Source of the DNA: Cyclobacteriaceae bacterium
GTDB taxonomy: Bacteria; Bacteroidota; Bacteroidia; Cytophagales; Cyclobacteriaceae
DNA length: 41,263 nucleotides
Reading direction: 5' to 3'
Assembly: GCA_012033595.1 (NCBI GenBank)
Contig: JAAUQL010000046.1
Location: 1 to 41,263 of the forward strand
Part shown: piece by piece, positions 1,213 to 15,878 of the stretch
Numbering within the stretch: position 1 is the stretch's first letter
Layout: each line of letters opens with the position of its first letter
Notes under the pieces: model-generated
Database searches by the model: none
What the model saw: the letters and a program-made list of their open reading frames with translations, nothing else
What the model was told of the DNA's origin: nothing
Made by a program: the position numbers and the translations under genes

Positions 1213-1247
1213 GCATAATATAGAGCAATGCTCTATATTTGTTATGC
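1213..1247. promoter_or_regulatory. Palindromic operator candidate overlapping a -7 box
   Basis: Nine-base arms (atatagagc / gctctatat, 1218-1226 and 1230-1238) surround a 3-base centre, and outer arms gcataa / ttatgc (1213-1218, 1242-1247) extend the symmetry with a small bulge. Within the right arm, TATATTTG at 1234-1241 fits the Bacteroidota -7 consensus TAnnTTTG; a weak -33 (attg, 1210-1213) lies 20 bases upstream. A repressor bound here would block that promoter. The position between the TetR gene and the catabolic genes makes it the likely TetR target. This is inferred; the arms are too AT-rich for a convincing terminator. Confidence 0.6.
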
Positions 1248-1421
1248 TTTAACACCTTCACCTGATCAATACGATTGGGGATCACAAAGCATTGGGAGCG
1301 TAAATATTACTCGCAGCCAAATGGCTTTGAAAGATGATGGATCGCTGCTATTCCGGATTTTTTTGATGGATGATAAAGTCTTTTGAGTCTGTGGCTGTTG
1401 ACATTAATAATCGGAACTACT

Positions 1422-2561
1422 ATGAATATTATAGAAACCCATATTCCCCGCAGGTTGGTTTATGGTGACCACTGTTTTCAAACTTTCTTGCACGATATCC
1501 GGCTTTCTGATTATAAAGAACTGTTTATTGTGGCCGATGCCAACATAACGCAAGCTTTGCAAGAGCTGAAAGAGACCCTGAGGCAGTCAAAAATCAGGTT
1601 CACTATTAATACAGAAATCAAAGCTGAGCCTACCATCTCAGATTTCCAGGCCATTCTGCATGCAGCAGAAGCCACCAATGCCGATGCGGTGGCAGGTATA
1701 GGGGGAGGCAGCGTGCTGGATGTGGCGAAACTGATTGCAGCACTTTACAAATCCGCTGATAAAATCGACGAAGTGGTGGGCAAAGACAAACTGTCGAAAC
1801 GAAGCCTGCCGCTATATTGCATCCCAACCACAGCGGGCACCGGAAGTGAAGTGTCTCCCAATGCCATCCTGCTGGACGAAAAGCAGCATTTGAAAGTTGG
1901 AATTATCAGTCCGTACCTGATCCCGGATGCATCGTATGTCGATCCGGTACTTACCTATTCGGTGCCGTATCATATCACCGCTGCGACGGGCATAGATGCG
2001 CTTACACATTGTCTGGAAGCCTATACCAATAAAAACGCCCACCCCTTCATCGATATGTATGCCTTGGAGGGTATTAAACTCATCTTTCACCATCTTGAAA
2101 AAGCATGTGAGAACGATGCGGTGGCCCGAGCCAATGTGGCTTTGGGTAGTTTATATGGTGGGATATGTCTTGGCCCTGTCAATACGGCGGCGGTTCATGC
2201 GCTGGCTTACCCGCTGGGGAGCGAATACAAAATTCCTCATGGTATATCCAATGCTTTGTTACTACCCCATGTGATAGAGGCCAATCTGCCATTTGCCAAT
2301 GAAAAATACGCTACTGTGGCTCTTGCTATAGGTGCAGACAACACCGAAAACACAAATGAAACAGCGCGCAACGGCATAGAACTGCTGAAAAAACTATGCA
2401 GCAATGTAGGAATCCCAGCATCTTTGAATGCATTCAATATTTCAAAAGGAGAAGTAATCAATTTGGCCAAATCCGCCATGAAGGTTGAGCGTCTGTTGAA
2501 AAACAATCCGAGAACCCTAACCGAAGAGGAGGTTCAAAATATCTATTACAAACTGTTTTAA
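1422..2561 (+). CDS. Iron-containing alcohol dehydrogenase (group III)
   Basis: NAD(P)-dependent dehydrogenase of the Fe-ADH/FucO family, 379 residues from the ATG at 1422; a TTG 39 bases upstream would add a poor N-terminus, so the ATG is preferred. The dinucleotide-binding motif GGGSVLDVAK sits near residue 92 and TTAGTGSE near 140. Four metal ligands are visible at Asp192, His196, His259 and His273, spaced as in E. coli lactaldehyde reductase FucO (196, 200, 263, 277), so the enzyme should be active. It is the first gene of the acid-sugar cluster. The likely role is oxidising or reducing a small hydroxy-aldehyde or alcohol of the pathway, but the substrate cannot be read from sequence. Confidence 0.9.
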   Translation: MNIIETHIPRRLVYGDHCFQTFLHDIRLSDYKELFIVADANITQALQELKETLRQSKIRFTINTEIKAEPTISDFQAILHAAEATNADAVAGIGGGSVLDVAKLIAALYKSADKIDEVVGKDKLSKRSLPLYCIPTTAGTGSEVSPNAILLDEKQHLKVGIISPYLIPDASYVDPVLTYSVPYHITAATGIDALTHCLEAYTNKNAHPFIDMYALEGIKLIFHHLEKACENDAVARANVALGSLYGGICLGPVNTAAVHALAYPLGSEYKIPHGISNALLLPHVIEANLPFANEKYATVALAIGADNTENTNETARNGIELLKKLCSNVGIPASLNAFNISKGEVINLAKSAMKVERLLKNNPRTLTEEEVQNIYYKLF

Positions 2562-2578
2562 AAATACCAAGAACCTGA

Positions 2579-3673
2579 ATGCCTAAAATCCTTGTAATTG
2601 CCGATGATTTTACCGGAGCTGCCGAGATGGGCGGAATAGCGCATCTTTATGGGTTTAGGGTTAAGTTTATATCAAATCCTACCTGGCCCAAAGCATTTGC
2701 AGAAGATGTTCTTGTCTTGGATACCGATAGCCGAAATCTAAATGGCGAGGATGCTGCTACGAAAGTGCAAAAATTTGTATCCGGTTTCCAGCCGGAAGAT
2801 TTTTCCTTAATTTATAAAAAAACAGACTCGGTATTGCGTGGACAGGTTGAAGCTGAAATTAAGGCATTGTTGAAATGGACAGGATTTTCAGGTTCCGTTT
2901 TGGCTCCGGCTAATCCTTCAAAAAGACGAACTATAGTCAATGGTCACTATCTGATAGATGGACAACCTATCCACGAAACTGATTTTTTGCTTGATCCGAT
3001 TTATCCAAGGCGACATTCAGAAGTGGTACGTTTGCTTGGCGATCATGTAGAGGCGACACACGCTAACGATTTCTCCCACAATACCGGAATTATTATTCCT
3101 GATGTCTTGTCGATAGATCAACTAAACGGGCTACTAAGTACCATCAGCTTGGACAATTGCCTGCTATCAGGTGGAGCCGATTTTTTCAGGTCTGTACTAA
3201 CCACCAAACTTCAACTTGGGGAACAAGCCAAATACAATACGAATCAGATTAGCGGGGCGCGGTGTTTTATCATAGGAAGTACCTCAAACTCCAGCCGGCA
3301 AACTGTGCAAAGACTGCAGGAGCAGGGGCTGCCTCTCCTTTCCCTGCCCAGGGCTGGTCTTTACGATCAGGTTGTTTTCCGAAGTTGGCTGGATCATATC
3401 AAATCTAATTTGAAAAACGAACTGGGGCTTGTTGTCAGCAGTCCGGCAGAGCACATCACTGACCCTGCCGATAAAAAAAATATCACTAAGCGACTGGCAT
3501 CTGCCGGAAAATTCATATTACAAAATGGATCGCAGCACAAACACTTGTTTGTGGAAGGAGGCGAAACGGCCAGGGCAATTATGGATGAAGCTGAAGTTCC
3601 AGATTTGAGATTGGATGGTGTTCTTGCCGATGGTGTGGTCAGGTTTTGGTCAGACCGGTATCATTTTATTTAA
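2579..3673 (+). CDS. Four-carbon acid sugar kinase family protein (DUF1537)
   Basis: ATP-dependent kinase of the DUF1537 family (DtnK/OtnK/LtnK group), which phosphorylates acid sugars such as threonate, erythronate or 3-oxo acids. Of 364 residues, the N-terminal domain shows IADDFTGAAE (residues 6-15) and YKKTDSVLRG (about 81-90), which bind the sugar acid, followed by the NPSKRRTIVNGHY segment. The C-terminal nucleotide-binding half ends in the GGETA motif. It is slightly shorter than the usual 400-430 residues but no motif is missing. The pairing with PdxA2 downstream is the known signature of D-threonate-type pathways, in which the phosphorylated acid is oxidised and decarboxylated to dihydroxyacetone phosphate. 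The exact substrate is open. Confidence 0.9.
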   Translation: MPKILVIADDFTGAAEMGGIAHLYGFRVKFISNPTWPKAFAEDVLVLDTDSRNLNGEDAATKVQKFVSGFQPEDFSLIYKKTDSVLRGQVEAEIKALLKWTGFSGSVLAPANPSKRRTIVNGHYLIDGQPIHETDFLLDPIYPRRHSEVVRLLGDHVEATHANDFSHNTGIIIPDVLSIDQLNGLLSTISLDNCLLSGGADFFRSVLTTKLQLGEQAKYNTNQISGARCFIIGSTSNSSRQTVQRLQEQGLPLLSLPRAGLYDQVVFRSWLDHIKSNLKNELGLVVSSPAEHITDPADKKNITKRLASAGKFILQNGSQHKHLFVEGGETARAIMDEAEVPDLRLDGVLADGVVRFWSDRYHFI

Positions 3674-3725
3674 CTGTTAAACCCGGAAGCTACGTGTGGC
3701 CGGAAAATATTATGTCAAAAAAATA

Positions 3726-5282
3726 ATGGATAAAGGAGAATTGATTTATATCGATTACGCAATTATTCTGCTGTCACTGGCAGGCTCTGTATGGATTGGA
3801 TTTCATTTTGCCAAAGGCCAAAAATCCACCAGCAAATATTTTATCGCATCGGGCAAGATACCGGCATGGGCCATAGGTATGTCCATTTTGGCCACTCTGA
3901 TCAGCAGCATTACCTTTTTGGCTTATCCCGGCGAGGGCTTTTCCAACAACTGGATTCGGTTGGTGCAGGGGTTTATGGTTCCCATAGTGCTGCTTTTATT
4001 GATATGGTCGGTGGTTCCGCTATATCGAAATGTCATAGGCCTGAGTGCATACGAGTATTTCGAAAAGCGCTTCGGTCTCCTGGCACGCATGTACAGTTCG
4101 CTGGGCTTCATTATGGCGCACTTCTCAAAAATGGGTACGGTACTCTACCTGTTGGCACTGGCCATCGGACACTTGCTGGGCATGGACACCGTGGTCATCA
4201 TTATCATCTTGGGCGTGGTCATCATTATTGTCACCTATTTTGGCGGAATTGAAGCGGTGATATGGCTGGATGTGATTCAGGGATTTATGCTCATAGCCGG
4301 AGGTTTGGTGACGCTCATCATCATTGTCTCCACCACCCCGGGCGGACTCCCGGCCATCTGGGAGGTGGGTGTGCAAAATGATCTGATTGGCTTTGGGCCA
4401 TTTGATTGGGATTTTGTCAATCTGACATTCTGGGTGATGGCACTCAATGGAGTTTTCTATGCCATTCAGAAATATGGCACCGATCAGACCATCGTCCAGC
4501 GCTATCTGACGGCCAAGTCTAATAAGGATGCGATCAAAGCCTCACTCATTGGTGTATTGCTCAGCGTGCCGGTATGGGCGCTATTCATGTTTATCGGCAC
4601 TGCACTTTTCGGATATTATCATTTAAATCCTGAAGTGACCTTACCATCAGATATTAAAGCAGATGCAGTTTTTCCACTTTTTATCCTTCAGGAGCTTCCG
4701 ATTGGTGTGTCCGGCCTGGTGATCTCCGCATTGATCGCTGCGGCCATTTCCAGTCTCGATTCCGATATCAACTGCCTTTCGGCCATTCTGACCGAGGATT
4801 TTTATTGTAAGTTGAAAAGGAAGGTTACAGAGCGTCAAAAGCTCTTTTTTAGCAAAATCACCGTGTTGGTGGTCGGTTTTGCCTCCATAGCCATAGCCAT
4901 GCTATTCACAAAAATAGGCGGAGAGGGCATTTTGGGAACCGTTTTTAGTTTGTATGCCATATTCTCTGGTGGCATCGCCGGAATCTTCCTCTTGGGGTTA
5001 TTCTCAAAAACAGCCAATAACAATGGATTGAATATCGGCATTGCTGCGTGTGTATTGTTTACGGCTTATGCGGTGCTTACCTCTACCAGGGTAGAAGACC
5101 GGCTGCTCTTGGATTTGGGATCGTTCAATTTTTCCCAGCACAATTACATGCTTGGTGTGTACAGCCACTTGATTTTGATCGTGGTGGGCCAGTTGGCAAG
5201 CTACCTGTTCCCCCGGCAAGAGATCAATGAAAGGTTGACATTTTACGGATGGTCAAAAAAGAAAAGAAAAGAAGCACAATGA
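3726..5282 (+). CDS. Sodium:solute symporter (SSS family)
   Basis: Inner-membrane transporter of the solute:sodium symporter family, 518 residues with about 13-14 hydrophobic helices. The first helix follows the start (IDYAIILLSLAGSVWIG), and the unwound-helix stretch SILATLISSITFLAYPGEGF near residue 55 is typical of the family. GTDQTIVQRYLTAK in the middle and SSLDSDINCLSAIL near residue 340 are the other conserved blocks. The ATG at 3726 gives a normal cytoplasmic lead; a GTG ten codons upstream is possible. The stop overlaps the next gene by four bases (ATGA). Placed between kinase and dehydrogenase, it most likely imports the monomer used by the cluster. No SusC/SusD pair is present, which favours a small substrate. 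Confidence 0.92.
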   Translation: MDKGELIYIDYAIILLSLAGSVWIGFHFAKGQKSTSKYFIASGKIPAWAIGMSILATLISSITFLAYPGEGFSNNWIRLVQGFMVPIVLLLLIWSVVPLYRNVIGLSAYEYFEKRFGLLARMYSSLGFIMAHFSKMGTVLYLLALAIGHLLGMDTVVIIIILGVVIIIVTYFGGIEAVIWLDVIQGFMLIAGGLVTLIIIVSTTPGGLPAIWEVGVQNDLIGFGPFDWDFVNLTFWVMALNGVFYAIQKYGTDQTIVQRYLTAKSNKDAIKASLIGVLLSVPVWALFMFIGTALFGYYHLNPEVTLPSDIKADAVFPLFILQELPIGVSGLVISALIAAAISSLDSDINCLSAILTEDFYCKLKRKVTERQKLFFSKITVLVVGFASIAIAMLFTKIGGEGILGTVFSLYAIFSGGIAGIFLLGLFSKTANNNGLNIGIAACVLFTAYAVLTSTRVEDRLLLDLGSFNFSQHNYMLGVYSHLILIVVGQLASYLFPRQEINERLTFYGWSKKKRKEAQ

Positions 5283-6310
5283 ATAAAAAACCCATAATCG
5301 CAATCAGCGCCGGAGACCCTGCCGGTATAGGACCCGAGGTGACCGTAAAAGCATTGGCCAGCAGAGACATTTACGATGTCTGTCGCCCCCTGGTGGTTTG
5401 CGATGCGCATATTATAAAACAGGCATTGGAGTTTTGTGGAATGCAAACTTTTAATATTAGAAAAGTACTAAATCCACAGGAAGCAAAATATGAATTTGGA
5501 ACTATTGATGTGCTGGATGTGGCCAATATTTCCATGGCAGACTTCGCCTTTAACCGGGTGTCTGAAATGACCGGAAAAGCATCGTTTGAATATGTGGAGA
5601 AAGTCATTGCACTGGCTATGAATAAAGAGGTAGATGCTACCGTTACCGGGCCGATCAATAAGGAAGCCATTCAACTGGCAGGCTACAACTATGCCGGCCA
5701 TACGGAGATTTTTGCAAAATATACCAACACCACCAGGTATGCCATGATGCTGGCCGAAAAAAACTTCCGGGTGGTGCATGTCAACACCCATGTTTCCATG
5801 CTTGAATCCATTAAGCGGACAACAAAAGATCGCGTTTTATCTACCATTGTGCTGGCTCATACTGCTTTGAAGCAAATGGGTATTGAAAACCCGCGAATTG
5901 CCGTGAACGGCATTAATCCTCATGCCGGAGAGCATGGCCTTTTTGGAGATGAAGAAATCAGGGAAATTATCCCGGCGATTGAGCAGGCCAAAGCCTTGAA
6001 TATCATGGCCGACGGCCCGCATCCACCCGACACCATCTTCCCCAAGATGAAAGGCGGACAATATGATATAGTAGTTTGTATGTACCATGACCAGGGGCAC
6101 ATTCCGACCAAATTATTGGGTTTTGAATACAATCATGAAACGCAAAAATGGGAAGGCATGTCGGGGGTGAATATCACCCTGGGTCTGCCGATCATCCGTG
6201 TATCGGTAGATCACGGAACTGCATTTGACAAAGGAGGCAAGGGAGAGGCCAACCCGCAGAGCATGCTTCAGGCCATAAAATATGCTTCATTATTCAGTAA
6301 TAAAAAATAA
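5279..6310 (+). CDS. pdxA2: PdxA-family 4-hydroxythreonine-4-phosphate dehydrogenase, PdxA2 type
   Basis: NAD-dependent, divalent-metal dehydrogenase/decarboxylase of 343 residues. It opens with SAGDPAGIGPE; the metal-binding histidines are His141 (YAGHTE), His215 (NPHAGE) and His270 (YHDQGH), followed by DHGTAFDKGGKGEANP. In vitamin B6 synthesis PdxA acts on 4-phosphohydroxythreonine, but PdxA2 enzymes next to DUF1537 kinases act on 4-phospho-threonate or -erythronate, giving dihydroxyacetone phosphate and CO2. The kinase two genes upstream and the symporter overlapping its start (ATGA) argue for PdxA2. The ATG at 5279 is chosen over one ten codons earlier because it aligns with the usual PdxA N-terminus. 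It is followed three bases later by the aldolase gene, so the two are cotranscribed. Confidence 0.88.
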   Translation: MNKKPIIAISAGDPAGIGPEVTVKALASRDIYDVCRPLVVCDAHIIKQALEFCGMQTFNIRKVLNPQEAKYEFGTIDVLDVANISMADFAFNRVSEMTGKASFEYVEKVIALAMNKEVDATVTGPINKEAIQLAGYNYAGHTEIFAKYTNTTRYAMMLAEKNFRVVHVNTHVSMLESIKRTTKDRVLSTIVLAHTALKQMGIENPRIAVNGINPHAGEHGLFGDEEIREIIPAIEQAKALNIMADGPHPPDTIFPKMKGGQYDIVVCMYHDQGHIPTKLLGFEYNHETQKWEGMSGVNITLGLPIIRVSVDHGTAFDKGGKGEANPQSMLQAIKYASLFSNKK

Positions 6311-6313
6311 AAA

Positions 6314-7234
6314 ATGAATCAGAAAGTGAATTTTTTCGAGGGCGTAATGGTACCCATGATCACACCAGCCACACAAGATGGAAACATCGATGAGGTGCAT
6401 GCAGCAAAGATGATCCGGTTTTTACTCGACAACAATACCATACCGTTCATTTTAGGGACTACCGGTGAGGTCGCTTCTATTTCTATTCCGCAAAGAGAAA
6501 AGCTTGTTCGCATACTATTGGAAAACAAAAGAAAAGAGGTGCCTTTGGTAGTTGGCATGGGGTCATTGACTGTGAAGGAAACATTTGAATTATCCAATAA
6601 GTTTTTCGCATGGGGAATTGATGCAGTGGTGCTTACCATACCCAACTACTTTAAGCTGGGCGATGAACAGATATTTCGGTATTTCGAAAACCTGGCGGAG
6701 AAAATTGACGGTAAGATAATACTTTACAACATCCCGGCTACAACCCACAATTCGATTCCTATCGATGTGGCAGATCGCCTGAGCTATTTAGAAAATATTG
6801 TAGGAATCAAGGATTCTGAAAACAACAAAAGCAGGCTACTCAAGTCGCTGGAACTATGGCAGAATAGAGAAGATTTCATTCATCTGGTGGGCGTAAATGA
6901 CCTGATGGCAACGGGACTGACGATGGGATCGTCAGGAATAGTGCCCAGCTCAGCGAACCTGGTTCCTCATCTATATTATCAATTGTTTACTGAGACCAGG
7001 GCCGGAAACGAACAAAAAGTAAGCGAAATCCAGGAGCTGACCAGAGCAGTAACCAATGTATATAAAGACGATTTTTTGCTGGGTGAGTCTTTAGCTGCTT
7101 TAAAATACCTCTTGTCTGAGCAAGGGCATTGCCTGCCCTACATGTTTGCGCCTTTGTGCGAATTGGATGAAGTCCAGAAGAAATGTGTGAAAGCCAGATG
7201 GCTGGAACTGACCGACACTGTTGAAAAATTATAA
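6314..7234 (+). CDS. Dihydrodipicolinate synthase family aldolase/lyase
   Basis: Class I, pyruvate-type aldolase of the DHDPS/N-acetylneuraminate lyase superfamily, 306 residues in one TIM barrel. The substrate-carboxylate motif GTTGE is near residue 48, the proton-relay Tyr is Tyr138 (LYNIP), and the Schiff-base lysine is Lys166 (VGIKDSE). All catalytic parts are present. Because the neighbours are catabolic, it is more likely a retro-aldolase or dehydratase for a 2-keto-3-deoxy acid than the lysine-pathway DapA. It begins three bases after pdxA2. Its product would be pyruvate plus a small aldehyde, and that aldehyde could be the substrate of the Fe-alcohol dehydrogenase at 1422; this link is inference. 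Confidence 0.87.
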   Translation: MNQKVNFFEGVMVPMITPATQDGNIDEVHAAKMIRFLLDNNTIPFILGTTGEVASISIPQREKLVRILLENKRKEVPLVVGMGSLTVKETFELSNKFFAWGIDAVVLTIPNYFKLGDEQIFRYFENLAEKIDGKIILYNIPATTHNSIPIDVADRLSYLENIVGIKDSENNKSRLLKSLELWQNREDFIHLVGVNDLMATGLTMGSSGIVPSSANLVPHLYYQLFTETRAGNEQKVSEIQELTRAVTNVYKDDFLLGESLAALKYLLSEQGHCLPYMFAPLCELDEVQKKCVKARWLELTDTVEKL

Positions 7235-7253
7235 GCCAACTAAACGAAAGATT

Positions 7254-7415
7254 ATGAAATTGAAACTTGTACTTGACCTCGACATCAGAAAAAGAAAACT
7301 CCTGCAACGATATATTGGAAAGGAGAAAGGATTGCGACCCGAAGAATATAAGCTGGCTTTGTCTGAGCTGATAGATAAGCAACTTTTCAAACAGCTTCAG
7401 AAATACCAATATTAA
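7254..7415 (+). CDS. Small basic hypothetical protein, 53 residues
   Basis: A short open frame beginning MKLKLVLDLDIRKRKLLQRY, rich in lysine, arginine and leucine, predicted to be helical and cytosolic, with no signal peptide or cysteine pair. It fits neatly between the aldolase stop and the GH97 start without overlapping either, and its codon use resembles its neighbours. The ATG at 7254 is preferred; a TTG 33 bases earlier lies inside the aldolase gene. I do not recognise a family. It could be a genuine small operon protein or a chance frame. Confidence 0.45.
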   Translation: MKLKLVLDLDIRKRKLLQRYIGKEKGLRPEEYKLALSELIDKQLFKQLQKYQY

Positions 7416-7437
7416 ATCAGTCCTTACCTTTGATACG

Positions 7438-9404
7438 ATGAAACACGGATTTTACCTGACTTTTTTACTGACCTTTTTTGGTCTGAACACAGTTTTTGGC
7501 GCAGAAAAAGTACTTTCCTCACCAGATTCGAATATTAAAGTTGAAATTATAATCGGCGACCGGCTCTATTACAGGGTGAAGTACAAGGACAACATCGTGA
7601 TGCAGGCCTCTCCATTGTCGTTAACGATCAATAAAAATCAACTTGGAAAATCTCCAAAACTACTCAAGGCAAATGAATCTAAAACCGATCAGATCATTCG
7701 CACGGTTTGGGGCAACCGAAAGGAAATCATTGATCAGTTCAATGAACTGACATTGGATTTTGAGGGTAATTATTCGCTACAGTTCAGAGCATACGATCAC
7801 GGTGTTGCCTATCGCTTCGTAACCAATCTAAAGGAAAAGGACGTTATCGTGAACAGCGAGGAAGTTGCCTACCGATTTGATTTTGGAACAAATGCCTGGC
7901 TGCTCGAGGGCCCCTCTTACGAATCAAATTTCAAATTCACTCCTTTGGATGTGGAGGAAATCACCAATTTCCAAAACAGCATGGAAAAGATATATCTGCC
8001 TGCTTTCATCGAAGTGAAAAATAAGGTAAGGATCGCCATTACCGAGGCAGGATTGTACGATTACCCGAGCCTGTTCCTCAATCGCGGGAATGACTATGAA
8101 AACTATATGCTGGGTGTTTTTGAAAACTATGCCCTGACTACCACGGTGGGCGGATTTAGCAATTATTCGAAACTGAGCGACACTTCTGCGGATTATATTG
8201 CCAAAACTGCCGGTTCGCGGGCTTACCCCTGGCGACTGCTGGTGATCAGCGATGACGATGCCGTGTTTGCTGACAATAATCTTGTTTACCAACTGGCAGC
8301 GCCTTGCGCTTATCAGGACACGGACTGGATCAGGCCGGGGAAAGTAGCCTGGGACTGGTGGCATGATTATGCGGTGAAAGGGGAAGATTTTGAAGGTGGA
8401 ATCAATACCAAAACCTACCTATACCAGATTGACTTCGCAGCAAAATACAATATCGAATATATACTGGTAGACTGGATGTGGACCGACAAATACGATCTAT
8501 CATTATTTAATCCCAATGTAGATATCAAAAAAATTATTGACTACGGAAAAAATAAAAACGTTGGGGTGATGCTGTGGTGCCCGGGGCATACCCTTCATGA
8601 GCAGCTCGACCAGGCCCTGGATCTATTCTCCGGTCTGGGGGCAGCAGGTGTCAAGGCTGACTTTTTTGGCAGAGAAGATCAAACATGCATTAAAATGTAC
8701 GAAGATATAGCCATTGCTGCCGCTAAAAGAAAAATGTTGGTGGATTTCCACGGTTGCACCAAACCCACCGGCATAGAGCGCACCTACCCAAACATTATAA
8801 ACTATGAGGCGGTACTCGGCAACGAGTACAATAAATTGGCACCTGAAAATGTACCATCGGCCATAAGGTGATGTTGGCCTTTACACGAGGTATGATCGGC
8901 CCGATGGATTTTACCCCCGGGGGCATGAGAAACAGAAACGACCACCTCAGTGTCTTTTTTACCCTTCCGCAAGTGTATGGGACCAGAGCCGGTGAAATGT
9001 CCCTTTACGTGATTTACGATGAGCCATTAAAAATGCTTTGTGATGCCCCGTCGGCCTATGAGGCGGAACCAGACATTCCCTCTTTTATATCTCAGATCCC
9101 TACTACCTGGGATGATACAAAAGTACTGGATGGCGTTTTTGGTGAGTTCATTATAAAAGCTCGAAAAACGGGCAATACCTGGTTTATTGCCGGTTTAAAT
9201 GGGGAGCAATCGCGAACAATCCAACTGGATTTGTCCTGGCTGCAAAACGACGCCTATGTCGGGGAGATATTAAGAGATGGCGCGAACGCTCACAGGATCG
9301 GAATCGATTATGTCATCGAACAAATCAATATCAGTAAAAACAGTAGCCCTGAGATTACAATTCCAGCCGGTGGCGGCTTTATTATGAGAATTGAAGGCAA
9401 ATAA
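7438..9404 (+). CDS. Glycoside hydrolase family 97 (one frameshift)
   Basis: Periplasmic or surface GH97 enzyme (alpha-glucosidase or alpha-galactosidase), 655 residues after repair. Residues 1-21 are a signal peptide ending near VFGA. An N-terminal beta-sandwich runs to about residue 290, then a TIM barrel starting near KVAWDWWHDY. GVKADF places Asp408 where retaining GH97 members carry the nucleophile, and NYEAV gives Glu457 as candidate acid/base, so a retaining alpha-galactosidase-like mechanism is suggested. The frame breaks near 8857-8860: the first frame ends after PSAIR, while the next frame continues GHKVMLAFTRG and GPMDFTPGGM, the expected GH97 continuation. One missing G in a GG run repairs it. 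It probably acts outside the cytoplasm on the glycan feeding the upstream genes. Confidence 0.88.
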
Positions 9405-9416
9405 ACCCAAATACTT

Positions 9417-11285
9417 ATGAAAACTAAGATAATTATCCTTATCCCGCTTTTGATGTTTTGCACCTACGCATTTGCCCAGCAAATACCAAAGGCCGGTTCT
9501 CCCGAAATGCCACTTGAATATATTGGTCAACCAAAATACATGAAAGACCATAGACACGACGGCTACCTTCGACCGGTTGTTGGCGTGCAAAACATTCAGA
9601 TTCTGCGTGCAAACCGGTCAAATCCGCCAGAGACCAACAAGGCAGGTAACACATACAATCACGCACCCATGATGGCATACTGGAATGGTAAGTTTTATGT
9701 GCAATACCTGGCCCATGAATGGGAAGAACATGGCAATCCCACAGAGACATATCTGTTACACTCCGAAGATGGATATAACTGGTCTTCGCCACGACTACTT
9801 TTTCCCGCTATAGAATATGAACCAGGCCGATTTACCATTGCCCACCAGCGCATGGGTTTTTATGTAGCTCCAAATGGGAAATTACTCACTTTATCATTTT
9901 ACGGTGCACCCGGAGTTGGAAAAGACAGCCCAAATAGTGGCGAAGGCATCGGCAGGGCTGTAAGAGAAATTAAAGAAGACGGCACATGGGGACCCATTTA
10001 TTTTTTAAGGTACAATCGTCACTATGGTTTTAATGAAAAAAACACCGGTCAATGGTACCTTTCCTATACACAATCCCCCGATAAAGCATTTGTACAAGCA
10101 TGCAATGATCTGCTCAAAAACAAGCTCATGACCCAACAATGGTGGGAAGAGGACAGAAGCACGGATGGTTTTTATACAATTGATGATACTTCCGAAGAAG
10201 ATTTTTCGGCGAAAGCGCTGTCTTTTTATCACCGCAAAGACGGTAAGGTAGTCGGACTCTGGAAAAGCGCCTATGCCGCTATTTCTGACGATGAAGGAAA
10301 AACGTGGTCAACGCCCGTAGCTGTGAAATCAAAACCGGAAGATACGGGAAAGGAATGGGGACAGAAGACCGATGATGGCCGATATGCCATTACCTACAAC
10401 CCGGCAGGTGCCGATATGCGGATGCCCCTTGCCATCATATCTAGCGATGATGGCATCACATTCGATAACATGTTGGCAGTACATGGTGAGGCGCCCGAAC
10501 AACGTTTCGCAGGACGATTTATGAATATTGGTGCTCAATACAACAGGGGTATCGCCGAAGGAAATGGAAATCCGCCGGGTGATGATATGTGGATAGTTTA
10601 TGCCCAAAGTAAGCAGGATTTATGGGTAAGCCGCATACCTATTGCACCCGTGAGTGCTGTACAGGAAGACGTTGATGAAAATTTTGAATCAATGGATTTA
10701 CATACAATTCCTGATGGGTGGAATGTGTACAAACCGACGTGGTCACAAATTCAGATTGAAGAGGAGAGCGGAAATAAATATTTACACATTCGAGACGAAG
10801 AGCCCTATGACTATGCAAAAGTGGTTAAAGTATTCCCGGAGGCGAATGCAGTCACTATTGAGTTTTCTCTTTTAGACTATGAAGGGCAGCACTTAGAAAT
10901 AGATGTCACGGATTCAGAGGGCAAGCGGGCAGTCCATATGACTGATTTTCCCTGGAATTACCTCTTAGCCAACGATGGGCGAAGCATTAAATATCTAAAA
11001 CGGCTACCCGCAAAAGAAGACTATCGCGTTGTTGTCCACATCGATCTTAAAAAACAATCATATTCACTGGTGTTAAATGGGGAAACCTTACTAGAAAATG
11101 CAGGCTTGTATGAATCGGTCGGAACTGTAGAAGGATTGGAATTCAGGACAGGGATGTTTCGAATGGACAATTTGTATGCAAATGATCTATTGGCGCCAAA
11201 GGATACAGGCCTGCCGGGAGCTGACCAAAAAGCACATAGAATAGCGAATTACAAAATTGATGATGTGAAGATTACGACGAAATGA
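9417..11285 (+). CDS. Secreted sialidase-fold beta-propeller protein with Asp-box repeats
   Basis: A 622-residue exported protein: a signal peptide of about 20 residues (ending YAFAQ), then a beta-propeller of the sialidase/BNR superfamily. Asp-box-like motifs are visible as HSEDGYNW (about residue 118), SDDEGKTW (about 286) and SSDDGITF (about 342). From about residue 415 (ENFESMDLHTIPDGW) a lectin-like beta-sandwich of LamG/concanavalin type follows, ending in a segment that describes a 'FRMDNLYA' strand. The enzyme class cannot be fixed: sialidase-fold hydrolases and propeller polysaccharide lyases both look like this. It lies 12 bases after GH97 and overlaps the esterase by four bases, so it probably attacks the same glycan. 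Confidence 0.75.
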   Translation: MKTKIIILIPLLMFCTYAFAQQIPKAGSPEMPLEYIGQPKYMKDHRHDGYLRPVVGVQNIQILRANRSNPPETNKAGNTYNHAPMMAYWNGKFYVQYLAHEWEEHGNPTETYLLHSEDGYNWSSPRLLFPAIEYEPGRFTIAHQRMGFYVAPNGKLLTLSFYGAPGVGKDSPNSGEGIGRAVREIKEDGTWGPIYFLRYNRHYGFNEKNTGQWYLSYTQSPDKAFVQACNDLLKNKLMTQQWWEEDRSTDGFYTIDDTSEEDFSAKALSFYHRKDGKVVGLWKSAYAAISDDEGKTWSTPVAVKSKPEDTGKEWGQKTDDGRYAITYNPAGADMRMPLAIISSDDGITFDNMLAVHGEAPEQRFAGRFMNIGAQYNRGIAEGNGNPPGDDMWIVYAQSKQDLWVSRIPIAPVSAVQEDVDENFESMDLHTIPDGWNVYKPTWSQIQIEEESGNKYLHIRDEEPYDYAKVVKVFPEANAVTIEFSLLDYEGQHLEIDVTDSEGKRAVHMTDFPWNYLLANDGRSIKYLKRLPAKEDYRVVVHIDLKKQSYSLVLNGETLLENAGLYESVGTVEGLEFRTGMFRMDNLYANDLLAPKDTGLPGADQKAHRIANYKIDDVKITTK

Positions 11286-12846
11286 TAGGGCAAATAATTG
11301 GTGTAGTGCTTCTCCTTTTTAGCTCGTTCTGCTTTGCACACAATTGGCCAAGTCAATGTCTGACTGTTGAAATAGAATCTTCCATAGATCATAAATTGCA
11401 AGAAGCCCGGTTTATGAAGAGCAACAGCAAAAATCCGAGGCCACTTGTGGTTAGTCTGCATACCTGGAGTGGAGATTTCAATCAAAACGATACGCTGGTT
11501 TGGCAATGTGTGGATAGGGATTATAATTACATCCACCCAAATTTCAGAGGGCCTAACAGGACAGTGGAAGCCTGTGGTAGTCCATTGGTTATCAGCGACA
11601 TTGATGACGCAATCGACTATGCGATAGCGCATGGCAACGTAGATATAAATGAGATTCATGTAATCGGATCCAGTGGTGGTGGCTACGCTACCCTGTTGTG
11701 CTACATGCAATCCCGGCATCATATTAAATCATTTGCTTCATGGGTTCCTATTTCCAATCTAATAGACTGGTACAATGAGGTCAGAATCAGAGAGCCTGAG
11801 CATGCGCTGGATATCGCAAAAGCGACAACAGGTAAAAACTTTGATACCAATTGGCACTATATCGATGAAGAAGAAGCAAAGAAACGTTCCCCGATCTATA
11901 TGCAAACAGCCACGCTTGATCGCAGTAAAAGTAAACTGTCGATCTACGCGGGTGTGCATGACGGGTTTACTGGCGCTGTACCCATTACCCATTCCATAAA
12001 TATGTACAACAAGTTGGTCATGGACAATGATCGCGAAAGGATTCATTGTCAGGTTTCAAAAGATGAAACCATCTCATTGCTTACCTCACGTGGAGCAGGT
12101 CGCAAAGGCATGCATCACACACTTGCAGATCGCCCGATTCACCTGCAGCGAGCCTACAAAGACATGATCAGCTCACCATCTTTGAAGGTTCGCATGAGTG
12201 TTTAACCAATGTTGCCCTACAGCATATCGATAGTAAGCGCATGCTTACTATTGGCGACTCCAACGGGGCTATGGAAAATGGTTGGGTTGACCAATTGAAA
12301 CAAATCAGATTCAACGATCACAATTACAATACGTCAATTTCTGGAAATACGATTGGATTTATGAATAATGGTGACCCTCGCCTCAACACCCTTCACAATA
12401 TCGACAACTATATGAGTAGCGCTATTGACCACCTAAAAGGGCTGGATGCCTTAATCATTACCTTAGGCACCAATGATTGCAAAATCGTATTCAAGGATAG
12501 CATCAACCTCGTTTCCGAAAACTTAAAAGAGCTGATCGGGATGATCAGGGCACATGATGCGTACAAAGCTTCGCAGCCGCGGATATTTATTGTTTCACCT
12601 CCTCCTTTTGGTATAGCAAGCCACAGCCACGATGAGTTTGTACATGCAAATGAGCGAATGCTCCGCCTGTACCCCGAGTTGAAAAAAACAGCCCTAAGTG
12701 AAGGCTGCACTTTTATTGATATTAAGTCGCAACTAGATGGCGTTATTGACCATTTGACTTCCGACGGTATTCATTTGCATGCGGAGGGGCAGCGTCTAAT
12801 GGCGGAGATCATCAGTCAGGAAATAGACAAATATGATCTGGACTGA
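11282..12846 (+). CDS. Two-domain secreted esterase: alpha/beta hydrolase fused to SGNH hydrolase (one frameshift)
   Basis: Reconstructed as one 521-residue protein. Residues 1-20 are a signal peptide. The alpha/beta-hydrolase (prolyl-oligopeptidase-like) domain has nucleophile Ser131 in GSSGGG, acid Asp227 in VHDGF and, after frame repair, catalytic His305 in FEGSHE. The frame breaks at 12161-12163: reading on from 'cat' at 12163 gives HDQLTIFEGSHECL, the normal end of this fold, and continues without a stop into the SGNH domain, whose block I is IGDSNG (residue about 323), block III GTND and block V DGIHLH. One missing C repairs it. Such esterases remove acetyl or similar groups from glycans. 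If the frame break is real, two proteins result, the first without its histidine. Confidence 0.72.
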
Positions 12847-13025
12847 ATCACCATGCAATTAGGCATTGGGAATGCTATGCTGCTCGAAATACCCGTTCAA
12901 GTGTGCTCGGGTAGGAGTAACTGCTGTTTTTTTTTTTAATCTTTCAACAATCCCCGCAATAAAAAACAAATTCTACCTTCACGCCCCAGGCCTGGTCAGG
13001 CAGTTTGGGAGAACTAGCCGGGACT

Positions 13026-13391
13026 TTACTGGGAGATGATTTTCATGAACTCGTCCAATTCCGGCTTCACATATATTTTTCCGTCAATCTCTACCACCGG
13101 AAAGGAGACATAGCCTTTGTACTCGGCTTCCTGGATTTTTTGCACTAACTCATTGTAGTAAGTTTCACTGGCTTCTACGTCTTTAAAGGTATATTTCACA
13201 TCCAGAGCGTCAACTGATTTACGAAATGCGATACAGTGATCGCAGTTTTCGCTGCCATACACCATGATAACGGGCTCTGCTTTTGGTATCACCACCTCAG
13301 CGGCCTCTGTGTTTTTCTGTGGTTTGGTTTCACAGGCCAAAAAAGCAATAATAATTAGAATGAAAAAGCTGGCAATTGATGAGTATTTCAT
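13026..13391 (-). CDS. Glutaredoxin/thioredoxin-fold lipoprotein
   Basis: A 121-residue protein with a lipoprotein signal (hydrophobic run then LAC, Cys20), a linker rich in Glu and Lys, and a glutaredoxin-like domain: VYGSENCDHC places a CxxC redox pair at the end of the first strand and start of helix 1, and the later FPVVEIDG contains the cis-proline expected of thioredoxin folds. It likely faces the periplasm and reduces or exchanges disulfides there. It is transcribed opposite to the esterase cluster and lies 95 bases downstream of the membrane protein gene at 14179, so the two may be a unit. The partner is unknown. Confidence 0.8.
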   Translation of the reverse strand: MKYSSIASFFILIIIAFLACETKPQKNTEAAEVVIPKAEPVIMVYGSENCDHCIAFRKSVDALDVKYTFKDVEASETYYNELVQKIQEAEYKGYVSFPVVEIDGKIYVKPELDEFMKIISQ

Positions 13392-13486
13392 GATTATGTT
13401 ATTGAAAATCCAGGCAATGGGGTGTACTTGCGTCTAAATTTATTATTTTTTATGTGATCGCAGCGATGTAAAAGAAACAAAATGCA

Positions 13487-14405: not shown

Positions 14406-15878
14406 AATAGTTTTGATTTTATCAGGCAGCGGCATGTAGATGACTACCAAAGGCTTTTTGACCGCTTTGCCATCGACCTGGGGGGACTCGCCAGAGACAG
14501 CCTCCCTACAGATCAGCGGATTAAGCAATTTCAGGATCAACCTGACAATCAGCTCGTAGCCTTATATGTGCAATATGCCCGTTATTTGCTGATTGCCTCC
14601 AGCCGTGCCGGAAGCCACCCGGCCAACTTGCAGGGAATCTGGAACGACAAGACAGCGCCCCCGTGGGACAGCAAATACACTGTCAATATCAATACTGAAA
14701 TGAACTACTGGCCTGCTGAAGTCACCAACCTCAGCGAGTGCCACGAGCCGCTGTTTCAGTTGGTGGAAGAATGTGCCCGGTCTGGCAAAAATACCGCCAG
14801 ACAACACTACAATGCCAGGGGGTGGATTCTTCACCACAATACAGACCAATGGAGGGGTACTGCGCCCATCAACCATGCCAACCATGGCATTTGGGTCGGC
14901 GGTAGCGGCTGGCTCAGTACCCACTTGTGGGAGCATTTCCTCTTCACCCGCGACATAGACTTTTTGCGTCAAAGGGGCTATCCCATCATGCGCGAAGCAG
15001 CATTGTTTTATACTGATTTTCTTGTCGAAGACCCCGAAACCTCCTGGCTCATGAGTACCCCATCCAATTCACCCGAAACCGGCGGGCTGGTTGCGGGACC
15101 CACCATGGATCATCAGATCATCAGGTCATTGTTCAAGGCTTGCATCGCGGCAGATTCGATTCTGGGCGGGAGGGATGGCTTTATTGACACCTTAAAAAAC
15201 ATGGTACCCAGGATTGCCCCCAACCAAATCGGGCAATATGGCCAGCTACAGGAGTGGTTGCGAGACCGCGATGACCCCAAAAATACCCACAGGCATGTGT
15301 CGCACCTGTGGGGCATGCATCCCGGCACAGACATCAATTGGGAAGATAACCCGGAGCTAATGCAGGCAGCAAAGCAATCGTTGCTTTACAGGGGAGACGA
15401 TGGCACAGGATGGAGCCTCGCGTGGAAAATAAACTTCTGGGCGCGTTTTCTGGATGGAAACCATGCCTACGAATTGGTGAAAATGTTATTTCGATTCGTG
15501 GATAATGGGAGTGAAGGCCATCAAAAGGGAGGCTCCTACCTCAATCTGTTCGATGCACATCCGCCATTTCAGATAGATGGCAATTTTGGCGCTGCGGCAG
15601 GTATAGTTGAAATGCTCCTGCAATCGCACCTTACCTATATCGATTTATTGCCGGCGCTTCCGGATGCTTTCGAAAACGGCTCTCTTGCCGGCGTGTGTGC
15701 CAGGGGTGGCTTTGAGCTCGACTTTGGTTGGGAAGACAAAAAACTGGTTCAGGTGAGTGTGCTTTCTAAAGTTGGGGGAATTTGCCGTTTGAAATACGGG
15801 CAAAAAACCATAGATTTTGAAACTGTTGCCGGTGAACGGTATATCTTCGATGGTCATCTGGTGATGCAGGAAAAATAG
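14406..15878 (+). pseudogene. GH95 alpha-L-fucosidase, 5'-truncated remnant
   Basis: The frame is open from 14406 (just after a TGA at 14403) to 15878, and from about 14427 it is clearly GH95: HVDDYQRLFDRF, NLQGIWND, VNINTEMNYW and PFQIDGNFGAAAG are family blocks. The catalytic Asn pair (NIN), a Glu in the ETSWLMSTPSNSPE region and the base Asp (QIDG) are all present. About 350-400 N-terminal residues (the beta-sandwich and the start of the helical barrel) are absent, with no signal peptide and no ATG at a sensible place; a GTG at 14568 gives the longest initiated frame. The sequence before 14405 is AT-rich and does not code for the missing part in any frame. This is a deletion or a misjoin, not a frameshift. 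Confidence 0.82.

Follow-up and report, generated by a model that had tools for sequence, protein, structure and literature searches.

Contig JAAUQL010000046.1 of a draft Cyclobacteriaceae genome (assembly GCA_012033595.1), hereafter the window (41,263 nt), carries five adjacent genes which, together with a GH143-type gene downstream of them, probably encode a single linear catabolic route for the C7 acid 3-deoxy-D-lyxo-2-heptulosaric acid (Dha), ending in pyruvate, dihydroxyacetone phosphate (DHAP) and CO2. The five genes encode an iron-dependent alcohol dehydrogenase (Fe-ADH), a DUF1537 kinase, an SSS-family symporter, a PdxA-family dehydrogenase and an aldolase of the dihydrodipicolinate synthase (DHDPS) family. 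Dha as the substrate, and each of the reactions, is what we infer from sequence. In window coordinates, the six genes are as follows.

1422-2561, + strand: Fe-ADH (PF00465, PF25137), proposed reductase of a C4 aldehyde-acid to D-threonate
2579-3673, + strand: DUF1537 acid-sugar kinase (PF07005, E 1.5e-32; PF17042 under cut-off), proposed D-threonate kinase
3726-5282, + strand: SSS-family sodium symporter (PF00474, E 1.1e-44), proposed Dha importer
5279-6310, + strand: PdxA-family dehydrogenase (PF04166, E 1.2e-103), proposed PdxA2 (D-threonate-4-phosphate dehydrogenase/decarboxylase yielding DHAP)
6314-7234, + strand: DHDPS-family class I aldolase (PF00701), proposed Dha aldolase (yielding pyruvate and a C4 aldehyde-acid)
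9417-11285, + strand: GH143-type beta-propeller with a carbohydrate-binding-module-like (CBM-like) domain (PF24067, E 1.3e-87), proposed Dha-releasing hydrolase

In the proposed route, the exported GH143-type enzyme would cleave Dha from a glycan, which in most relatives of the order would be rhamnogalacturonan II (RG-II), and the symporter would import it. The aldolase would then cut between C3 and C4 of Dha to give pyruvate and 2,3-dihydroxy-4-oxobutanoate, the latter to be reduced to D-threonate by the Fe-ADH, phosphorylated to 4-phospho-D-threonate by the kinase, and oxidized and decarboxylated to DHAP by PdxA2, for a net yield of one pyruvate, one DHAP and one CO2 per C7 acid. The tetronate is expected to be D-threonate because its configuration follows, by Fischer logic, from D-lyxo; of the eight 3-deoxy-2-heptulosarates, only the D-lyxo (Dha) and D-xylo isomers lead to D-threonate. 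The kinase DtnK is paired with PdxA2 in the D-threonate route, and the last two steps proposed here follow that published route. DtnK itself is given in PMC10971088 as a DUF1537 kinase acting on D-threonate. The original prediction, made from the sequence of the window, had also proposed a polymer-derived acid, import by the symporter and action of the Fe-ADH on an aldehyde; all three are consistent with the evidence below and would apply to the Dha route as well.

A GH143-type protein points to Dha

The sialidase-fold propeller protein of the original prediction, to which no substrate had been assigned, is present and is of the GH143 type. Its residues 22-619 align to residues 17-609 of BT1020 (5MQR/5MQS; E 1.3e-120), which was the sole PDB sequence matched, and this full-length homology to the BT1020 N-terminal domain supports its placement in GH143. 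The enzyme for which CAZy family GH143 was set up, from Bacteroides thetaiotaomicron, cleaves Dha off RG-II (PMC6811678), and the GH143 assignment is therefore a pointer to Dha as the substrate. Dha is a rare acidic sugar of plant pectin (RG-II) and of some algae. Deoxy-lyxo-2-heptulosaric acid is also given for prasinophyte scales and the theca of Tetraselmis (PMC10762512). Of 124 alignment columns with a conservation of 95% or more among 42 others, the window protein keeps 102.

The cassette aldolase and GH143 occur together across genomes

Genomes were searched with A1, a profile of five cassette aldolases, and with PF24067 for GH143, in an order sample of 390 genomes and a phylum sample of 395, both drawn evenly from larger groups. 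Up to 5 aldolase or 7 PF24067 candidates were scored per genome, and the absences given here hold for that search. A1 includes the aldolase of genome G031, which was found via GH143; this affects the phylum sample only. Fourteen genomes of the order sample score at least 344 bits to A1, and 33 more reach only 224 bits or less (the sister type). Over both samples the cassette type is set apart from the sister type by scores of at least 317 against at most 224 bits, the threshold of more than 300 bits having been set after this gap had been seen.

PF24067 was above its cut-off in 53 of the 390 order-sample genomes: all 14 with the cassette aldolase and 39 of the 376 others (p 1.4e-13, or p 1.0e-12 with the window removed and 13/13 cassette genomes remaining), and only 2 of the 33 with the sister aldolase alone. 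These Fisher values treat genomes as independent, and the genus-level test, with genera counted by hand, is safer; there PF24067 was found in 9/9 cassette genera and 10/121 others (p 4e-9). The association is weaker in the phylum sample, with GH143 in 3 of 6 cassette genomes and 19 of 389 others (p 0.0027), or in 2 of 5 without the window (p 0.025).

We fetched the neighborhoods of 16 further cassette aldolases. The Fe-ADH, PdxA2 and kinase genes adjoin the aldolase in 15 of them, and the SSS gene is also present in 13; the aldolase of G393 stands alone, G176 shows no SSS gene in its stretch, and the G959 contig stops before any SSS gene is visible. Restricted to the order and with the window left out, these counts are 13/13 for the three enzymes and 12/13 for the symporter. 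The conservation on which the original prediction had been made to depend is borne out: locus L077 keeps the gene order of the window, and the four enzymes lie together in all 13 of these cassettes. The fetched stretch itself includes GH143 in 7 of the 13, among them G1012, where it is split over two frames (L232, 2782-4433); counting GH143 genes up to 28 kb away on the same contig raises this to 9, the additions being G933 (16 kb) and G1009 (28 kb). No GH143 gene was seen nearby in G706, G814, G887 or G898.

As a separate observation, aldolases of the sister type, which score about 160-225 bits against A1, adjoin another SSS symporter in L072 and L073 (G076 and G194), two genomes that belong to the window's own family.

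Enzymes of the module

The aldolase residues Lys166 and Tyr138 and the four Fe-ADH metal ligands were reported as intact in the original prediction, and they are also invariant among cassette proteins. The active-site Tyr138, the Schiff-base Lys166 and the motif G48-T49-x-G51-E52 are shared by all five cassette aldolases aligned, as in class I aldolases of the DHDPS family, and Asp192, His196, His259 and His273 by all four Fe-ADHs aligned. Seven NCBIfam families matched the aldolase, each under its cut-off, so that it enters no named subfamily (DapA, NanA, KDG aldolase or KdgD). The Fe-ADH matched no NCBIfam equivalog at its cut-off; it is 55, 47 and 50% identical to the Fe-ADHs of three other cassettes, and in L059 the Fe-ADH gene adjoins the aldolase. 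Identities for these two enzymes are quoted only from direct comparisons, not from the best of two or three queries. Relatives of the symporter found inside cassettes are 72% (L077), 59% (L065) and 54% (L059) identical.

For the kinase, the best NCBIfam match was NF047819, D-threonate kinase, at 116 bits with a cut-off of 450, and we therefore claim only that it may work like a D-threonate kinase. The PdxA-family protein matched the solved structures 4JQP (287 bits), 2HI1 (268), 6E85 (267) and then 1PS7 (169). The top match bears a generic name, and 2HI1 and 6E85 are titled "dehydrogenase 2" and D-threonate 4-phosphate dehydrogenase, respectively. Judged by these scores, the protein resembles PdxA2-type structures far more than 1PS7-type ones; in NCBIfam it is above the cut-off of the generic pdxA model (TIGR00557) and below that of D-threonate 4-phosphate dehydrogenase (NF002891). 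A second PdxA gene of the same genome lies on contig C173.

Two side observations concern these families. All five Bacteroidota cassette aldolases have His145, and the aligned Bacillota module aldolases mostly have RTG there, like DHDPS; two aldolase lineages seem, from these alignments, to serve the same module. In L230, L233, L234 and L236 the SSS-bearing ORF (open reading frame) is 984-992 aa long, and in L230, the only one searched, its C-terminal half has no clear Pfam family and a weak glucuronyl-esterase match.

Conservation of the module among PdxA2 relatives

A second set of loci was picked by PdxA2 similarity alone (the best 80 of at least 560 relatives; many of the 80 loci stop at contig ends). 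In a strict count, partners had to lie on the same strand as PdxA2 and within 6 kb; a loose count accepted them anywhere in the locus, and thereby took in opposite-strand ADHs of 25-27% identity in L075 and L137. The Fe-ADH, DUF1537 kinase and aldolase occur together in 43 of the 80 loci (45 loosely), the kinase without the other two in 15 (14), and none of the three in 9 (8). The aldolase and the Fe-ADH are strongly associated: both were found in 47 loci, the aldolase only in 7, the ADH only in 2 and neither in 24 (Fisher 4e-12), the corresponding loose counts being 48, 7, 3 and 22 (9e-11). In three of the seven strict aldolase-only loci, L092, L094 and L135, the contig breaks off at the aldolase, and in L075, L095, L098 and L111 no cassette ADH was seen, the PdxA2 gene of L098 starting 596 bases from the end. 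Clusters L076, L078 and L079 have the kinase and PdxA2, with neither aldolase nor ADH found.

The original prediction had a decarboxylating and an aldol branch acting on one acid. We prefer a single line, because the aldolase, ADH, kinase and PdxA2 co-occur and because clusters of kinase and PdxA2 also exist alone.

Most of the 80 loci are from Bacillota and Coriobacteriia, and the four-enzyme module is found there in Faecalibacterium, Olsenella and Lachnospiraceae (e.g., L142, L144, L146 and L148 within L081-L154). No GH143 match was seen in these Bacillota and Coriobacteriia module loci, whose carriers may possibly scavenge free Dha. L077, from a Bacteroidales metagenome-assembled genome (MAG), has the window's order of ADH, kinase, SSS, PdxA2, aldolase and GH143, without GH97. 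In G031, of another class, the order is ADH, aldolase, PdxA2, kinase and SSS with GH143 7 kb further on, and G033 has the five module genes together and GH143 elsewhere in its genome. The recurrence of the module in many genomes, in the same or a rearranged order, argues that the neighborhood is not due to chance.

In L075 (a Cyclobacteriaceae MAG), the genes after the cassette (7406-13453) resemble, by eye, Kdo (3-deoxy-D-manno-oct-2-ulosonic acid) biosynthesis, aminotransferase and Fe-ADH (25% identity) genes, perhaps for 8-amino-Kdo synthesis.

Glycan context

In G964 (L235) the module stands within a gene set resembling an RG-II locus, in the order GH95, esterase-like, kinase, PdxA2, ADH, SSS, aldolase, GH78, GH143, arabinosidase-like, GH28 and apiosidase. 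Other cassettes have GH106 (G933), GH78 (G914) or GH127 (G917) nearby. Several RG-II families thus stand together in G964; those of the window are limited to GH143 and a shortened GH95. The window's own genome has one apiosidase, two GH95 (the second outside the window) and only a weak GH106 match. Its contig C95 (L246, 6366-12153) carries in a row Gfo/Idh, xylose-isomerase-like, PGDH_C, GH140 apiosidase and apionate-lactonase-like genes, the last at 262 bits with a cut-off of 750, and the row looks like a locus for apiose release and oxidation. On account of this locus and the two GH95, the organism may be able to use part of the RG-II-type sugars. For the compact operons of the window, L077 and G031, the source of Dha may also be an algal or some other glycan.

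Of the 16 fetched loci, 8 (L229-L233, L235 and two more) hold a protein that clusters with the DUF6298 proteins of L230 and L232. A BNR_2-type cluster is represented in 7 loci, a DUF3826 cluster in 5 and a SASA-esterase cluster likewise in 5; these four clusters are candidate unassigned RG-II enzymes. A split transketolase adjoins the cassette of G033 and also occurs in L111. Apiose catabolism was considered as an explanation for it and was rejected, as only generic transketolase and glycerol-kinase NCBIfam matches were retrieved.

Other genes of the window and frame integrity

The remaining features of the locus are as follows.

471-1136, + strand: TetR-family regulator (PF00440, E 6.4e-11), probable local repressor, a role assigned by position only
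1219-1237, + strand: perfect palindrome TATAGAGCA-A-TGCTCTATA between the TetR and Fe-ADH genes, candidate TetR operator
7438-8871, + strand: GH97 N-terminal domain and most of the catalytic domain (PF14508; PF10566 positions 1-190), frame broken at the end
8868-9404, + strand: GH97 remainder in another frame (PF10566 positions 199-275; PF14509)
11282-12205, + strand: alpha/beta-hydrolase esterase part (PF20434, PF00326), frame broken at the end
12241-12846, + strand: SGNH esterase domain (PF13472, E 5.7e-16), apparent continuation of the broken esterase
14412-15878, + strand: GH95 catalytic and C-terminal domains (PF22124, PF21307), without the N-terminal domain

The gene families of the original prediction, all on the + strand, were confirmed by Pfam and NCBIfam, except that the TetR gene falls outside the range it had given to the locus. 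Its description of tiny gaps or overlaps holds for most junctions and fails for two, TetR-ADH (285 nt) and aldolase-GH97 (203 nt). The palindrome TATAGAGCA-A-TGCTCTATA has a single match in the window, with 0 mismatches and a chance expectation of 0.01. No TetR match at E 1e-8 was retrieved among the checked fetched relative loci, and no SusC or SusD among the 20 window ORFs searched against Pfam. The GH95 gene is an outlying part of the glycan locus, beyond two opposite-strand ORFs, with PF22124 positions 2-408 matched at 14412-15617.

Three coding regions have broken frames. The kinase ORF ends early, and the KPGSYxW end common to six aligned relatives was found in another frame. GH97, predicted as a single gene, proved to be two ORFs in different frames, each holding part of the catalytic barrel; the first matches the NCBIfam model NF053844 for retaining alpha-galactosidases, under its cut-off. 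The predicted two-domain esterase is likewise two ORFs in different frames, the second of which matches AxeA1 model positions 344-459, under cut-off, and contains a FEGSHE stretch that we take to be the catalytic-His motif. The same draft genome has an unrelated gene, for an amino-acid permease, that is likewise split into two ORFs, so that assembly or read errors are possible, though this is only one clear example.

Alternative explanations

We would like to note several observations that weigh against the Dha route. Neither the kinase nor the PdxA-family protein exceeds the NCBIfam D-threonate cut-offs. The cassette is missing from 39 of the 53 GH143 genomes of the order sample, and the search found no GH143 in the phylum-sample cassette genomes G074, G176 and G393. 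L075 has a kinase, PdxA2 and cassette-type aldolase, but its 16 kb show neither a cassette ADH nor an SSS gene nor GH143; L095, L098 and L111 have an aldolase and PdxA2, with Fe-ADH not found; and L104 has ADH, PdxA2 and kinase, with aldolase not found. The GH143-type protein of the window departs from the consensus at 22 of the 124 conserved columns, including a Glu to Gln change at 400, and lies on a long branch in the GH143 tree; given this divergence, its target may be a different linkage or glycan. In the G031 locus there are two sulfatases, an HpcH/HpaI-type aldolase and an FAA hydrolase, which suggest a sulfated, perhaps algal, glycan and other acids as well. Lastly, the frameshifts in the kinase C-terminus, GH97 and the esterase may be draft errors or decay.

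Some of these points would be accommodated if the same linear chemistry served another 3-deoxy-2-heptulosarate or free C7 acid, such as the D-xylo isomer or an acid of an algal or bacterial polysaccharide, released by GH143 relatives. The D-xylo isomer would also give D-threonate, the GH143 proteins of the window, L077 and G031 all sit on long branches (the tree being used solely to call them divergent), and the G031 sulfatases and the algal occurrence of deoxy-lyxo-heptulosaric acid fit as well. We nevertheless consider such a substrate unlikely, as the best GH143 reaches at least 400 bits in 11 of the 13 other order cassette genomes and 396-397 in the remaining two, scores like those of the nine phylum-sample genomes of genus g15, perhaps Bacteroides (409-418 bits), and the G964 module sits in an RG-II-like gene set.

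We give still less credence to the idea that the locus is decaying and no longer has a function in this strain. Decay would account for the three broken frames (kinase, GH97 and esterase) and for the missing GH95 N-terminal domain, but open frames remain for the Fe-ADH, SSS, PdxA, aldolase and GH143 genes, the aldolase, ADH and GH143 keep conserved residues, and the split permease, a single clear example, lies in an unrelated gene of the same draft. It is highly improbable that the kinase and PdxA2 act on a tetronate while the aldolase and Fe-ADH, as mere neighbors, act on a separate 2-keto-3-deoxy acid: the former pair does occur without the latter in 15 of the 80 loci (some on short contigs), and YagE, by title a 2-keto-3-deoxy-galactonate aldolase, ranks highest among those solved relatives of the aldolase profile that are not named DHDPS, but the aldolase and ADH come and go jointly with the module, both in Bacteroidota and in Bacillota, Coriobacteriia and L153 (Consotaella), and GH143 goes along with the aldolase type.

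Two further candidates were rejected. Aldol cleavage of Kdo gives D-arabinose, which would not feed the kinase and PdxA2 steps. A plain D-threonate operon does not account for the aldolase and ADH traveling with the module, nor for the aldolase type tracking GH143.

Significance and comparison with known systems

Among plant polysaccharides, RG-II is exceptionally complex. PMC12282258 presents its depolymerization by one gut bacterium as largely worked out, and nothing on the fate of its Dha was found in the literature searched. No Dha catabolic pathway was found among the papers listed there either, though the key papers on DUF1537, RG-II or apiose may describe one. With somewhat less than even confidence, we tentatively suggest an undescribed bacterial Dha pathway in two settings: Bacteroidota whose GH143 enzyme would set Dha free from RG-II or the walls of algae, and Bacillota and Coriobacteriia, with no GH143 seen near the module, that would live on Dha freed by others. 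Cross-feeding at the end of RG-II digestion is suggested by the 19 of 22 phylum-sample GH143 genomes that are without the cassette aldolase, including all nine of genus g15. If correct, the five-gene module would provide a testable, stereochemically exact hypothesis for the fate of Dha, could give names to gut-bacterial genes now resembling "dihydrodipicolinate synthase" or "PdxA", would suggest this cross-feeding link, and would supply enzymes for a sugar for which standards are said to be lacking (PMC12168206).

Compared with RG-II polysaccharide utilization loci, the module of G964 is alike in standing with GH95, GH78, GH28, GH143 and an apiosidase, whereas the window has only GH143, the split GH97, the esterase and the shortened GH95, and no SusC/SusD among the 20 of its ORFs searched against Pfam. 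The GH143 domain of BT1020, from the B. thetaiotaomicron RG-II system, is homologous over the entire propeller and CBM-like domain, but the window protein is stand-alone, without the GH142 half, divergent, and joined to a catabolic operon.

In the glucarate/galactarate route, the aldolase GarL, reductase GarR and kinase GarK act on a 3-deoxy-2-keto aldarate, giving pyruvate and an aldehyde-acid that is then reduced and phosphorylated. The logic is analogous to that proposed here, but the substrate is C6 rather than C7, the enzymes belong to other families, and the window would have an extra decarboxylating step, so that the likeness is one of analogy only. The aldolase OtnC is of class II. It belongs to the "aldolase-DUF1537" clusters for L-threonate and D-erythronate described from Ralstonia and Brucella, with ltnD, otnK, otnI, denD, otnC and an mfs gene (PMC10580937). 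Those clusters likewise have a DUF1537 kinase in a tetronate pathway, but apart from the kinase none of their gene types was identified in the cassette by Pfam or NCBIfam. The D-threonate pathway of DtnK and PdxA2 shares both the kinase and dehydrogenase families and the predicted end product, DHAP. The window sequences fall below the D-threonate cut-offs, and the window differs in adding a pyruvate-type aldolase and an Fe-ADH, by which D-threonate would be made from a C7 acid.

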